Shown piece by piece: positions 1,604 through 30,067 of a stretch of 64,000 nucleotides of DNA (positions are counted from its first letter, which is position 1; every line of letters starts with the position of its first letter). Made by a program: the position numbers and the translations under genes. The notes under the pieces were generated by a model. The model ran no database searches. It was not told the DNA's origin and saw nothing but the letters and a program-made list of their open reading frames with translations. The DNA comes from Desulfurococcaceae archaeon (lineage in GTDB: Archaea; Thermoproteota; Thermoprotei_A; Sulfolobales; Desulfurococcaceae), in assembly GCA_038845865.1 (NCBI GenBank), contig JAWBQJ010000002.1, positions 186,001-250,000 of the forward strand, given 5' to 3'.

Positions 1604-2503
1604 TTGCATCCGGTAGCCCTGCTCTTCATAATTAACTTGACGTCTGCCATCTTAAAGATCATCAGCGTAACGGGGACTACCGCTACCAGCGTATTTGTAG
1701 ACATGTTAAATGATGTTGGCGACGCCGTTGGATTGGGATTACTACTTCTCGGCCTCAGCTACGAGAGAAGAAAAAGTGACATTGTATATCCATATGGCAC
1801 GCGGCGGGCACTTTACGTTCTCTCTTTAATAACAATATCGATCATTAGCGGTTCAATATTTACGATAGCCTTATTCAAGGTAGTTAACGTACTAAGAGCA
1901 CATGAAGGCATGGTGGTCTCATTGCAGTCCATTTACGCATTTATGCCTGCATTCCTACTGAACGTGGGGGGCTTATTAGTGGTATATCTAAGCATGAGAA
2001 CGGGTAACAGCGATCCGGCACTTGAAGGTGGGTTGTTGGACTCCATGAGCGATGTAGCTGGTAGCGCGCTGGCATTAAGCTCGCTGATACTTGCAAGCGA
2101 GTTCCTTGATATTGTGGGTAGTTTGGTGCTGTCCTGCGTAATATTGATATCCGCGATTAGCGTTGGTTACAGGTACTTCCAAGTACTAATAGGTAAGGCA
2201 CCGCCCAGACAGGTGTTAAGACGTGTACTAGAGCGCTTACTTAACATGGGTGAGATCAGAGATGTGAACGTGTTTAATGCTACGATGATCACCGAAGACG
2301 AATACATGCTCGCACTGGAGGTAGAAGTGGATAAGCACCTGGATGTAGAGGACTTAGAAAGGCTATCAGGTAAGATAGAGGAAGAAGTAAAGAAAATAGA
2401 GCCGAGATTTAGGCATGTAATAGTGGAATTTGTAGCTGAAAAACACGAACCGAAGACGTATAAGAGGCTACTGCACGAGATTGAAAACTCGGAGAGCTTG
2501 TGA
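1604..2503 (+). CDS. Cation diffusion facilitator (CDF) family transporter
   Basis: CDF proteins export divalent metals (Zn, Fe, Mn, Co, Ni) in exchange for protons across the cytoplasmic membrane. The 299-residue sequence has several hydrophobic helices in its first 200 residues, then a charged cytoplasmic domain of about 90 residues like the usual CDF C-terminal domain. Acidic metal-site helices are visible as DMLNDVGD near residue 33 and DSMSDVAG near residue 146. The His often present at these sites is replaced by Asn and Ser, so metal preference may be unusual. The start is a TTG at 1604 close behind GGTGA. It is convergent with the ABC permease gene, with a gap of 9 bases. Confidence 0.85.
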   Translation: MHPVALLFIINLTSAILKIISVTGTTATSVFVDMLNDVGDAVGLGLLLLGLSYERRKSDIVYPYGTRRALYVLSLITISIISGSIFTIALFKVVNVLRAHEGMVVSLQSIYAFMPAFLLNVGGLLVVYLSMRTGNSDPALEGGLLDSMSDVAGSALALSSLILASEFLDIVGSLVLSCVILISAISVGYRYFQVLIGKAPPRQVLRRVLERLLNMGEIRDVNVFNATMITEDEYMLALEVEVDKHLDVEDLERLSGKIEEEVKKIEPRFRHVIVEFVAEKHEPKTYKRLLHEIENSESL

Positions 2504-2512
2504 AAAGCATAG

Positions 2513-3406
2513 CTATATCGCTCTTTCTTCCCTGTAAAACACCTTACCCAGGCTCGTTGGCGGTAGTAGGGCTTTACCTATTCTCGTCTTACTGTAAATT
2601 ATCATGGCTGCAAGCGCCGCTATAAAAGGTATGGACTTAGCTACGTCCACCGGTATTCGGAGAGTAGCCGTGAGAAGTATGCAACTATGATAAAGCCCTC
2701 CAAACAATAGTGACACCGGTATCAGCACTAGGGGATGCCTTCCAGCAACCAACGCTACGGTAAACGCTAGCCAGCCAAGGCCGAGCGTGTAGCTCCTGAT
2801 ATCCCAGTACCTCTGCCAGAGTAGTGGGAACAGTGAAGACCCGAAACCTATTAGCGCGAATCCTATAGCAGCCGCTAATAGCCTAGTCTTCAAGACGTCG
2901 ACTCCAAGGGCTGTTGCGACAGCTGGGTTCTCACCGCACGCCACAATCATTATACCCAGTTTCGTTTCTTTTAGTAGAAAGTGGAGTACAATGCTCACGA
3001 GCAGTGTCGCCGCAAGTAACGTTACGTATGTTTCAGCGCTGATGGTGTAAGCATACGTCGCTATACCGCCAACGAACATTCTCACGGGGTAGCCGAATAT
3101 TATGCCTAAGCCGTAACCAATGAACATCATTGAGAGGCCAACAGCTCCGTGGCTGATGGGCAACACCGTCATGACATATGCAAGTAAAAGCCCTATACCA
3201 CTAGCTACGACTGCCGAGGCGAACGAGCCTACTAGTGGAGATCCTGTACTGCACGCCACGAATACAGCTACGCCGGTTGACAGGAAGAAAACCCCATCTA
3301 TAGCTAGGTTTAAGAGACCTGACTTTTCAAATACGCTATGACCTAGTGCAATTAAGTGCAACGTTGCATACGCTGATATAATTCCCCAGAGCAGGTCTAT
3401 TGACAT
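2513..3406 (-). CDS. BMP-type (nucleoside) ABC transporter permease 2
   Basis: A 297-residue hydrophobic protein of the BPD_transp_2 permease family, the type paired with BMP-family binding proteins in nucleoside importers such as YufQ. Features of this group are the N-terminal ATLHLIALGHSVFEKSGLLNLAIDG region, read here as ALGHSVFEKSGLLNLAIDG, and the central ACGENPAVATALGVD loop that contacts the ATPase. It is the last gene of the operon: the upstream permease stops 2 bases before its start, so translation is probably coupled. Substrate (nucleosides or nucleobases) is inferred from the operon, not from residues in this protein. Confidence 0.88.
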   Translation of the reverse strand: MSIDLLWGIISAYATLHLIALGHSVFEKSGLLNLAIDGVFFLSTGVAVFVACSTGSPLVGSFASAVVASGIGLLLAYVMTVLPISHGAVGLSMMFIGYGLGIIFGYPVRMFVGGIATYAYTISAETYVTLLAATLLVSIVLHFLLKETKLGIMIVACGENPAVATALGVDVLKTRLLAAAIGFALIGFGSSLFPLLWQRYWDIRSYTLGLGWLAFTVALVAGRHPLVLIPVSLLFGGLYHSCILLTATLRIPVDVAKSIPFIAALAAMIIYSKTRIGKALLPPTSLGKVFYREERAI

Positions 3407-3408
3407 CG

Positions 3409-4545
3409 CTATTTCATCACCTTGATTTCGTACTCGGATAGGAAGCTGAGTATAGAGTAAGAAAATAGTACTGTCCCAATGATGAGTAGTGATTGTTCAA
3501 TACCACCTAAACCGGTTATTTGCAACGCTATGCCAGCATTCCTTAAGGCTCCGACCACGTACGCCATTACAGGGATATACTTCAATTCCAGCAGTGACAG
3601 CCAAGCAACAAGTATTGCTAAGTAGCCGTAACCGGCTGTTTGCGCCTCGATCGGGTATGAAAGCCTTTTAGCATAGCTGAGCAGGTACATCGCGCTGGTT
3701 ATGCCTACGAAGAAGCCTGAAGCGGCTAAGGCAATGACGTAGTACTTTTTAACGTTAATGCCGCTTGCCAGGAGGAAGTCTGGATTGTGCCCCAGGGCCC
3801 TAAGTCGTAGCCCTAAGGTTGTTTTGCTCAGTATAAACCACACTACCAGGGCCGTCGCTATAGCTACCACTAACCAGTAAACGTAATAGGTTAACTGGTA
3901 TGTAATGTCGTAAGCCCATCTCAGCACAGGATATAGCGGGCTCGATTCGGGAGTTGGTGAGCTCAGTTTAAGGTATACGTTCAGTGTGTAGTGTTTTGGT
4001 AACTCATCTGTTCTAGTGTAGCCGTATACATGTCGTCCTCTGAAGGGGTAGTATACGAGGTAGTTCACTATGTAGTAAGCTACGTAGTTGAGGATTAGCG
4101 TTATGGGAACCTCATTTACACCAGTATGCGCCTTGATTAGCCCCGCTAACATGGCCCATGATGCACCCATAATACCTGCTAAGAGGGTGGCTAAGGCTAC
4201 CATTAGGCCTGGTAACGGAAATTCAGGGTACTTCACTATTAGTAAGTAGATAAGAGGTATCATCGCGACGAAGAACTGGCCTTCTGCACCAATGTTCCAA
4301 GTAGCTGCCTTAAACGAAAGTAGCAAAGCATAACCCAGCATCGTTAATGCGAGTACGTCTAGCACTATGCTCGGTGACGTGAAAGACATTAAAATAACTC
4401 TTAATACGTCTAGAAAGTTCTTACTTGTTGCTTGCAGTATTAAGCTGAACAGTATTACACCTAGCACTATTGAATAGAGCGATATAATAGGTTTTCCGCC
4501 TTTGAGAGGCTTTTTTCTCTTTAAGATTATAAACTTCAACCTCAC
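3409..4545 (-). CDS. BMP-type (nucleoside) ABC transporter permease 1
   Basis: A 378-residue membrane permease of the BPD_transp_2 family, longer than its partner because of an extra extracytoplasmic loop (about residues 165-215, rich in Tyr and Pro). The typical GAEGQFFVAMIPL motif is at about residue 86 and the ATPase-contacting LGHNPDFLLASGINV loop near residue 252. It resembles YufP/NupP, the partner of the YufQ-type permease next to it. Its start at 4545 overlaps the stop of the ATPase gene by 4 bases, which is the usual arrangement for coupled translation. Function: one half of the membrane channel for nucleoside uptake. Confidence 0.88.
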   Translation of the reverse strand: MRLKFIILKRKKPLKGGKPIISLYSIVLGVILFSLILQATSKNFLDVLRVILMSFTSPSIVLDVLALTMLGYALLLSFKAATWNIGAEGQFFVAMIPLIYLLIVKYPEFPLPGLMVALATLLAGIMGASWAMLAGLIKAHTGVNEVPITLILNYVAYYIVNYLVYYPFRGRHVYGYTRTDELPKHYTLNVYLKLSSPTPESSPLYPVLRWAYDITYQLTYYVYWLVVAIATALVVWFILSKTTLGLRLRALGHNPDFLLASGINVKKYYVIALAASGFFVGITSAMYLLSYAKRLSYPIEAQTAGYGYLAILVAWLSLLELKYIPVMAYVVGALRNAGIALQITGLGGIEQSLLIIGTVLFSYSILSFLSEYEIKVMK

Positions 4546-27395: not shown

Positions 27396-27643
27396 TGTGG
27401 CTACGTGGGTGTTATCACCGTTGATACGAGGAGAGGTACCTCCTGTTCTTACGAGTAGTGCGAATCCTCGTAGAGCACCATGTGTACGTATTCAGACTCC
27501 TCGCAATTATGCTTTGCACTGTTTTCATGGCATTTTGTACCTTGGAGTCCCAGAGCAACCCCCGCTTACAGCTTTCTGCGCGAACCCAACACATACAATA
27601 CCCTTCCTGCTGTCGGTGCAATGTCTCTAGGGGCAACTCGGTT

Positions 27644-30067
27644 ATGAGGTATTCGAGTGAGAAGCTGAGGATCTTAGGGGTTGACAGCAAGACATGTATA
27701 GCTACCATGGAGAGCCGCCTTCACAGGCTCGACTGCGTCTTAGTCTTTAACGTGGATATACGCTCGGGATTGGCAGAGGTAGTATACAATGCCGATAAGT
27801 GCAATCTGAACGACATTTACGAGGCAATAAAAGATGCCGGTTACGATGTGCATAAGGGATCTGTAATTTTCAAAGCGGATAAGTTAAGCCCCCGCGATGC
27901 CATACAGTTAGAAGGCGAATTGCTAAGGATGGCAGGAATACTTGAAGCAAGGGCCTCACCAGCTACCAGGCTGATTAAAGTGGTATATAATCCGCTAACT
28001 ACCGACATGCAAAGCCTTTTAGGTTACTTGAAAGACACCGGGTTCAATGTAAGGCCCGTTACCAGGGCGAGGCCTACTACCTACACGTACCGCTTCCGGC
28101 GGTTTATAGCTTCAATGAGGATCTTCACATTCATCGTTAGTGTCGTGGTGATAAGCGATGCGCTGATCTCCGCGTCACGCGTTATTGAACTCGAATACTT
28201 AATTCCGCCTCAAGTTCACCTAACCTTAGCTATGACGGCTATCGCTTTAACGGGCGACGTGCTGATTAGGGGGATAAAGGCCCTCTTAAAATGCTCTCCA
28301 ACGTCAGAGTCTCTCGCCGCCTTATCCACGCTAATTTCGTTCATGGCAGGGACTCTTACGTTAACAAGTTACTTACAGTATCCCGGCATAGATGCGAGTC
28401 CAAGGTTTTTTCTCGGAATCGCTGCAGGTATTTGTGGATTCTTAAGTCTGGGAGTATTTCTAGAAGAAAGACTAAAATCGTGGAACGCTGGGTACCTGGA
28501 AGAGTCGGTGCAGAGGTATCTAGGCAAGGCGAGAGTGCTACGGAAAAACGGTACCTCAGAAGTTGATGCCTTTAAGGTAAAGCCAGGCGATATCGTCGAG
28601 GTCAATGCCGGGGAGATGATACCCGTTGATGGGGTCGTGGTGGAGGGTTGGGGGTACGTCAATGAGATCAGTTTCACGAGTTCGCCTTTACCGGTAGTCA
28701 AGAGAAGTAATTTAAGGGATCCCGTATACGCGGGCAGCCTCTTAGTGTCAGGTTCTATGAGGGTGAGGGCTACGAGGCCTGGTGAGGAAGCGCTATTCAT
28801 GCATATAATCGAGGCCGCGAGGGAGGCGCGGTCGAGGAAGCCGACTGTACGCAAGGCCGTAGACAAGGTGTGTAATGTAATTACATGGATGGCCTTGGGC
28901 ATAGGGATCTTTACTGCGCTGTACTGGTGGTTCACTAGGAAATCCCTCCAACTAGCTCTAATATTTACAGCTACAGTGTTTGCTACCACATACCCCTGGG
29001 CCCTGGGAATAGCTGCACCGCTCATCATAACGCTCGCCGCTTACAAGGCCTCTAAAACGGGAATACTGATCAGGAGCGGTGACGTGTTCGAACGTGTTCC
29101 AAAGGTAACGGTAGTTCTTTTCGATAAGACGAGGGTACTTACAGTTGGTAAGCTGGCCATAAAATCCCTGTACGTCGCTAATGCTCTTAGTGACGAAGAA
29201 GTACTCTACTACGTGTGTGGCCTAGAGTCCAGAGGTAGCCACCCACTAGCCTTAGCGATCAACGAGTATTGCTCTAGTAGGGGAGTTAGATACGGTAGCC
29301 CTAGCCACTATAAACACGTCCCCCAAAAGGGCACAGTTGGCCGTGTTGGTGACCGCGAAGTGATAATTGGCAGGTACGAAGCAGTAAAGGGGTTGAAGAT
29401 TAGGGTAAACGAGGGCACCGAGTTCCTGGTAAACTACTTAGAAAACCGCGGTTCGCTGCCGCTAATTATAGTGTTTGACCGTAAGGTGGCAGGCATCTTA
29501 GAGGTGGCTGACAGTGTACGAAACGGCTCCCTAGAAGCCGTTAAAGCACTCAAGAGGCGCGGACTAGCTGCGGGCATTGTGAGCGGGGATCGTGGGGCTT
29601 CCGTATCCTACTATGCCAGGGTTTTTGAGCTGAATCTAGCATACCCTGAAATGAGACCACAAGACAAAGCGAAATTAGTCGCGGAAATGCAACATAAAGG
29701 TGAAAGGGTAATGTTTGTTGGTAAGGGGATAAATGATGCTATTGCGCTGTCAGCCGCGTTTGTAGGAGTAGCTATGGGCAACGACTTCGGCATCGTGAAG
29801 GAATTCGGGGATGTTGTCCTATCAAACGACGATTTAGCAGGTCTTTTAAGACTATTCGAGCTGAGCGAGTTAGTTAAGAGAAAGCTGTACCAGAACCTGG
29901 TATTAGCGTTTATCTATAATGTTTTCCTAGCACTACTAGCAACTGGTGTATTGTACGAACTCTTCGGACTAGTGGTAAAGCCGCTGTTAGTATACGCGGC
30001 GATGATTCTAGGGCTTTTAAGCGTGGCTATGAATGCCGGTACTTTACTTAGAACGCGGATAACCTAA
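27644..30067 (+). CDS. Degenerate P1B-type (heavy-metal) ATPase
   Basis: An 807-residue protein with the full architecture of Cu-type P1B ATPases: two HMA-like domains (about 1-140), eight membrane helices, actuator, P and N domains. The key motifs are changed. First HMA GMTCxxC is GVDSKTC, losing a Cys; the membrane CPC is YPW; actuator TGES is FTSSP; DKTGT is DKTRV (the phosphorylated Asp kept); GDGxND is GKGxND. The nucleotide-domain SHPLA, the SGD motif and the YN of the seventh helix remain. The frame is open throughout. The ATG at 27644 starts just before the first HMA domain; an upstream frame from 27458 would add 62 Cys-rich residues and looks unrelated. Likely a non-transporting or altered-function homologue. 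Confidence 0.85.
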   Translation: MRYSSEKLRILGVDSKTCIATMESRLHRLDCVLVFNVDIRSGLAEVVYNADKCNLNDIYEAIKDAGYDVHKGSVIFKADKLSPRDAIQLEGELLRMAGILEARASPATRLIKVVYNPLTTDMQSLLGYLKDTGFNVRPVTRARPTTYTYRFRRFIASMRIFTFIVSVVVISDALISASRVIELEYLIPPQVHLTLAMTAIALTGDVLIRGIKALLKCSPTSESLAALSTLISFMAGTLTLTSYLQYPGIDASPRFFLGIAAGICGFLSLGVFLEERLKSWNAGYLEESVQRYLGKARVLRKNGTSEVDAFKVKPGDIVEVNAGEMIPVDGVVVEGWGYVNEISFTSSPLPVVKRSNLRDPVYAGSLLVSGSMRVRATRPGEEALFMHIIEAAREARSRKPTVRKAVDKVCNVITWMALGIGIFTALYWWFTRKSLQLALIFTATVFATTYPWALGIAAPLIITLAAYKASKTGILIRSGDVFERVPKVTVVLFDKTRVLTVGKLAIKSLYVANALSDEEVLYYVCGLESRGSHPLALAINEYCSSRGVRYGSPSHYKHVPQKGTVGRVGDREVIIGRYEAVKGLKIRVNEGTEFLVNYLENRGSLPLIIVFDRKVAGILEVADSVRNGSLEAVKALKRRGLAAGIVSGDRGASVSYYARVFELNLAYPEMRPQDKAKLVAEMQHKGERVMFVGKGINDAIALSAAFVGVAMGNDFGIVKEFGDVVLSNDDLAGLLRLFELSELVKRKLYQNLVLAFIYNVFLALLATGVLYELFGLVVKPLLVYAAMILGLLSVAMNAGTLLRTRIT

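Follow-up and report, generated by a model that had tools for sequence, protein, structure and literature searches.

The closest described systems to the protein analysed here are the CopA copper exporters of Archaeoglobus (3j09) and Legionella (3rfu/4bbj). In the Legionella enzyme (LpCopA), roles have been assigned to Met148 and Glu189 in copper entry and exit, to the metal-site CPC motif and to the TGE motif of the dephosphorylation loop (PMC11213822, PMC11970713). One gene in the window, the whole 64,000-nucleotide stretch of a Desulfurococcaceae contig that was analysed, encodes a protein that shares with these exporters the HMA, A, P and N domains, the eight membrane helices and the fold, at ~24–33% identity over a long alignment. 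In contrast to both, however, the equivalents of CPC, TGE, TGT, the Asp of GDG, the HMA Cys pair, Met148 and Glu189 are replaced. Among kinases and phosphatases, pseudoenzymes are familiar. In the open-access full-text literature, we found no P-type ATPase described as having lost its catalytic set with its fold under selection, and no pseudoenzyme or otherwise inactive case from a prokaryote.

Results

A full-length CopA-type gene with most pump motifs replaced

The first-pass annotation of this DNA described an intact frame of 807 codons in which most catalytic and metal-binding motifs are substituted and the HMA domain keeps a single Cys. Translation and alignment recovered all of this. Neither the CPC motif in M4 nor the HMA CxxC by which a functional CopA is recognized is present (YPW and SKTC, with Cys18 kept), and the three signatures of an active P-type ATPase, DKTGT, TGE and GDGxND, read DKTRV (Asp kept), TSS and GKGIND. 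The losses extend further than first described, to M221S, E258G, G561Q, W754L, S790G, D791L and the change of SEH to GSH. The equivalences to LpCopA Glu189, CPC and Ser721, the last being the position of D791L, come from alignment to 3rfu; Met221 we take to be LpCopA Met148, given the shared Met motif and the Legionella sequence. In M6 of this CopA clade, an Asp (MxxSD) stands where Legionella CopA has Ser721, and it is found in 29/29 relatives that cover the region.

The residues kept are D494, K495, T496, D623, GD649, K675, N697, D698, Y758-N759 and M787, together with the equivalents of LpCopA E205, D337 and M717. Asp494, GD649 and YN had been listed as intact from the outset, and rightly so; SHPLA, listed with them, is not, since the relatives read SEHP, Ser531 and Glu532 are Gly and Ser here, and only His533 remains. 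Across 31 relatives 94 residues are invariant, of which 20 are changed in this protein, compared with 0–5 when each relative is in turn left out and scored. The changes fall disproportionately on metal-path and catalytic residues (12/33 vs 8/61 for the other invariants; Fisher p = 0.016, an indicative value, as the residue list was drawn up after the alignment had been seen).

The heavy-metal P-type ATPase profile TIGR01525 was matched with 389.7 bits (cut-off 346.25), whereas the copper-translocating subfamily TIGR01511 reached 316.9 bits, below its cut-off of 397. Pfam matches and comparison of a structural model with 4bbj indicate the A, P and N domains and the 8-helix membrane part, the model not being independent of the relatives. 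This AlphaFold2 model, built with the relatives, has a complete P1B fold (pLDDT 85.3, pTM 0.72), and the structure closest to it is that of E2P-state Legionella CopA (4bbj; 650 residues, Z 34.8, rmsd 3.9). As its alignment contains canonical relatives, it shows compatibility with the fold and is no proof of it. The relatives' consensus has no CxxC in the second HMA-type domain either.

A GTG at 27458 was considered as an alternative start (869 aa) and rejected: codon usage in the 62-codon extension is non-coding-like (−0.30 bits per codon; mean of the gene, +0.195), and the ATG at 27644 was therefore kept. If translated, these 62 codons (27458–27643), over which the frame is open, would give a hydrophobic stretch as well as a CCRC cluster. 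A candidate structured RNA had also been proposed upstream of the gene; the fold z-score of −0.18, the lack of an Rfam or tRNA match and the lack of convincing conservation there do not support it.

Table 1. Features of the CopA-like gene, numbered from the first nucleotide of the window
Feature	Position	Strand	Basis
CDS, 807 aa, putatively pump-dead CopA-type P1B ATPase; single open frame without stop	27644..30067	+	Translation; Pfam HMA, E1-E2_ATPase, Hydrolase; NCBIfam TIGR01525
HMA domain 1 (residues 9-68), CxxC reduced to SKTC (C15S)	27668..27847	+	Pfam, alignment
Second ferredoxin-like HMA-type domain without Cys (72-140)	27857..28063	+	Model secondary structure, alignment
M221S, copper-entry Met; 'MDSL' Met of relatives (LpCopA M148)	28304..28306	+	Alignment; role PMC11213822, PMC11970713
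E258G, copper-exit Glu (LpCopA E189)	28415..28417	+	Aligned to 3rfu residue 189; role PMC11213822
E1-E2_ATPase region (A domain with M3 and M4)	28526..29056	+	Pfam
Dephosphorylation loop TGE to TSS (345-347; G346S, E347S)	28676..28684	+	Alignment
Metal-site CPC in M4 to YPW (450-452; C450Y, C452W)	28991..28999	+	Alignment
P and N domains (Hydrolase, 489-705)	29108..29758	+	Pfam
DKTGT to DKTRV (G497R, T498V); phosphorylatable Asp494 kept	29123..29137	+	Alignment
ATP site SEH to GSH (531-533)	29234..29242	+	Alignment
ATP site GxG to QKG (561-563; G561Q)	29324..29332	+	Alignment
GDGVND to GKGIND (693-698; D694K in Mg2+ site)	29720..29737	+	Alignment
M5 YN (758-759), kept	29915..29920	+	Alignment
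M6 MxxSD to MILGL (787-791; S790G, D791L)	30002..30016	+	Alignment

The replacements appear confined to a single branch

The closest sequences are canonical CopA proteins of order-level relatives (L008-L022, L135-L150), which align over the full length at 34–42% identity. In these 31 relatives CPC (31/31), TGE, DKTGT, GxG and GDGxND are canonical wherever the residues can be read; the departures seen are in L011, whose HMA CxxC reads LPLC, and in L143, whose SEH reads GEH. In a CopA tree, the protein nests inside this canonical group on a terminal branch of 1.61, compared with ~0.6–0.9 for comparable single-gene branches. Canonical residues in the relatives, and nesting among them, indicate that the losses arose on its own branch, and sequence comparison places the substitutions as derived and so far unique to one genome. 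A fast-evolving genome as the cause was set aside, as two neighbouring proteins are 68–77% identical within the genus.

Recurrence of the substitutions in homologues had been proposed as a test in the first-pass annotation. The outcome was negative: no homologue among the 31 relatives carries the same set, and a search for the GKG pattern across the class returned no other P-type ATPase. At a second match of that pattern (G224, L151) no such ATPase was seen; the longest frame at this locus encodes an unrelated 217-aa protein. A search of genome contigs with the protein alone gave no match, and a search with the alignment gave mostly distant named relatives, the nearest being Desulfurococcaceae archaeon UBA285.

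Two observations concern the relatives themselves. Another genome of the genus carries two P1B ATPases side by side in divergent placement (L050; G004:C6:5-694 and 2137-4488); the second is truncated where the contig ends and shares ~30% identity with the query. The CopA matches L140 and L141 (G129, G128) each hold one in-frame TAG in the matched span, with long open frames and canonical motifs present.

Genomic context

The gene lies on a 265 kb contig of a 1.45 Mb draft genome (8 contigs, 99.5% complete, 0.65% contaminated). A canonical CopA elsewhere in this genome, which the first-pass annotation had suggested looking for, was not found, nor does the genome encode any further P1B ATPase or any further HMA domain above the Pfam cut-off. 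The gene is isolated, flanked by a Trm112-like gene and a gene for an EamA transporter, and no metal-related neighbour was seen at the locus. In four genomes of the same genus, CopA is not near the phosphoglucomutase-type neighbour gene but at another site, and branching in the CopA tree departs from the genus; CopA therefore appears to move between these archaea. A close CopA match is absent from half of the family's genomes.

Of the genome's other P-type ATPases, classed as Ca type and PMA type from their sequences, the Ca-type gene is intact and has canonical motifs, one PMA-type gene is split by a frameshift, and a further PMA-type copy is a small remnant. The split gene lies outside the window (G000:C2:27211-29576; L002, L004, L045), has one frameshift near C2:28,400 and retains all catalytic motifs; either it became a pseudogene recently or the assembly is in error here. 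Just downstream of it, a degraded PMA-type fragment is found in two frames (G000:C2:30059-30718; L045).

Tests for decay and constraint

The nearest homologue is ~40% identical and synonymous sites are expected to be saturated. As there is no close relative for dN/dS, constraint was judged by simulation, by multi-base codon changes and by codon usage. In the simulation, a canonical relative drifted neutrally until it had lost equally many invariant residues, the core being defined as the 175 columns with hydrophobic residues in 11 relatives. The simulated genes carried on average 4.5–9.8 stops and 6.9–9.5 charged, polar or proline residues in the core columns. The real gene has no stop and no violated column (0/175), a combination that none of 2400 runs produced, and it lacks any insertion or deletion unique to it among its relatives.

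The nature of the changes points the same way. At 11 of the 20 changed invariants, 2–3 base changes are needed; uniform drift expects 1.2, and none of 12,000 runs reached 11. This multi-base share corresponds to a neutral distance of about 1–1.5 per site at the released positions; at such a distance, ~26–32 stops would be expected in a gene that was neutral throughout. With 11/20 multi-base changes and the other 74 invariants untouched, some sites have therefore been released and heavily changed. Synonymous codon usage is within the range of neighbouring genes. The stops, frameshifts and proportional loss of core hydrophobicity that mark a pseudogene are absent, and the three tests argue against a neutrally decaying one. 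In combination they fit an old non-canonical protein whose fold, but not whose pump chemistry, is selected; the earlier proposal that the fold was kept while the chemistry changed is borne out by the open frame, the intact core, the localized multi-nucleotide replacements and the ordinary codon usage.

The replacement excess, on the other hand, is about even across conservation classes (f 0.14–0.26), and constraint has therefore been loosened in general. This evenness would also fit a pseudogene, in a lineage where copper export had become useless and unselected decay had by chance spared the frame. That the substitutions are confined to one genome, that many family members without a close CopA match mark the gene as dispensable, and that other P-type ATPase copies in this genome are broken also speak for such decay. 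Drift to equal loss nonetheless predicts several stops, indels and polar core residues, and the multi-nucleotide changes at 11 of the 20 changed invariants, with 74 untouched, and the normal codon usage also speak against decay. Moreover, the genome's frameshifted PMA-type gene has the opposite pattern, with a broken frame and intact chemistry. We therefore regard a pseudogene as improbable.

Discussion

The alignment, the tree and the drift comparison show descent from a canonical CopA, motif loss, an intact frame and hydrophobic core, and site-specific release of constraint. Based on these findings, we propose that the protein descends from a working copper exporter, that its transport and phosphorylation cycle was lost long ago and that it has been retained as a folded membrane protein, a reading to which we assign a probability of roughly two in three. 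The even replacement excess also fits general relaxation, and restriction to one genome, with unshared substitutions and a gene lacking any metal-related neighbour, counts against this reading.

Less probable than decay is that the protein still works as a P-type ATPase, on a different substrate or by altered chemistry. Asp494, Lys495, Asp649, Lys675, Asn697, Asp698 and most HAD core invariants are kept, as are YN in M5 and Met787 in M6. However, the dephosphorylation Glu is gone with TGE, D694K places a positive charge in the Mg2+ site, G497R and T498V alter the phosphorylation loop, the N domain has lost Glu532 and Gly561, and the copper ligands at entry, CPC and exit are all missing. To our knowledge, no active P-type ATPase has this combination of substitutions. 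Sequencing error, chimeric assembly or a misannotated frame can practically be dismissed: although the genome is a draft, 807 open codons with the codon usage of neighbouring genes align over their full length to relatives, the contig is long and the genome nearly complete with little contamination, and errors would not yield scattered in-frame multi-base codon changes.

The protein has lost TGE, the CPC ligands, the Mg2+ ligand D694, the TGT loop and its N-domain ATP residues, and without them would be unable to cycle; from established P-type ATPase chemistry, we infer that Cu(I) occlusion and normal phosphorylation or dephosphorylation, and hence transport, would not occur. Lys694 could replace the Mg2+ charge beside Asp494 and thereby lock the P domain. 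The retention of D494, K495, T496, D649, K675, N697 and D698 makes residual nucleotide binding, or even phosphorylation, possible.

As to function, the first-pass annotation offered a sensor, a scaffold or a novel ligand-driven protein, which is only a guess; no neighbour or partner points to any of them. We speculate that the protein might be held static in one conformation as a membrane sensor or scaffold, and that a ligand might be sensed through the single-Cys HMA domain or the P and N domains and signalled to a partner. Even granting loss of pumping, this one-conformation form with a ligand read by those domains is unlikely. The proposal of a prokaryotic P1B pseudo-ATPase, a non-pumping membrane receptor or scaffold selected for a signalling or structural role, is also doubtful.

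Were the retained, non-pumping protein confirmed, it would mean that a pump scaffold can be put to a new use in which nothing is pumped, and the gene would provide a natural set of substitutions that separates fold-holding from chemistry-holding residues. It also serves as a warning that full-length CopA matches alone are insufficient for annotating copper resistance.

Compared with the CopA proteins of its own order, in which the catalytic and CPC motifs are canonical, this protein has lost both. A partial parallel is CATP-1 of C. elegans, a Na+/K+-ATPase-like protein for which a pump-independent role has been proposed but disputed (PMC11631496). The resemblance is that part of the action of CATP-1, also a P-type ATPase, has been suggested not to depend on pumping (PMC11631496); the differences are that CATP-1 has pump activity, and that it comes from an animal and belongs to a different P-type class.
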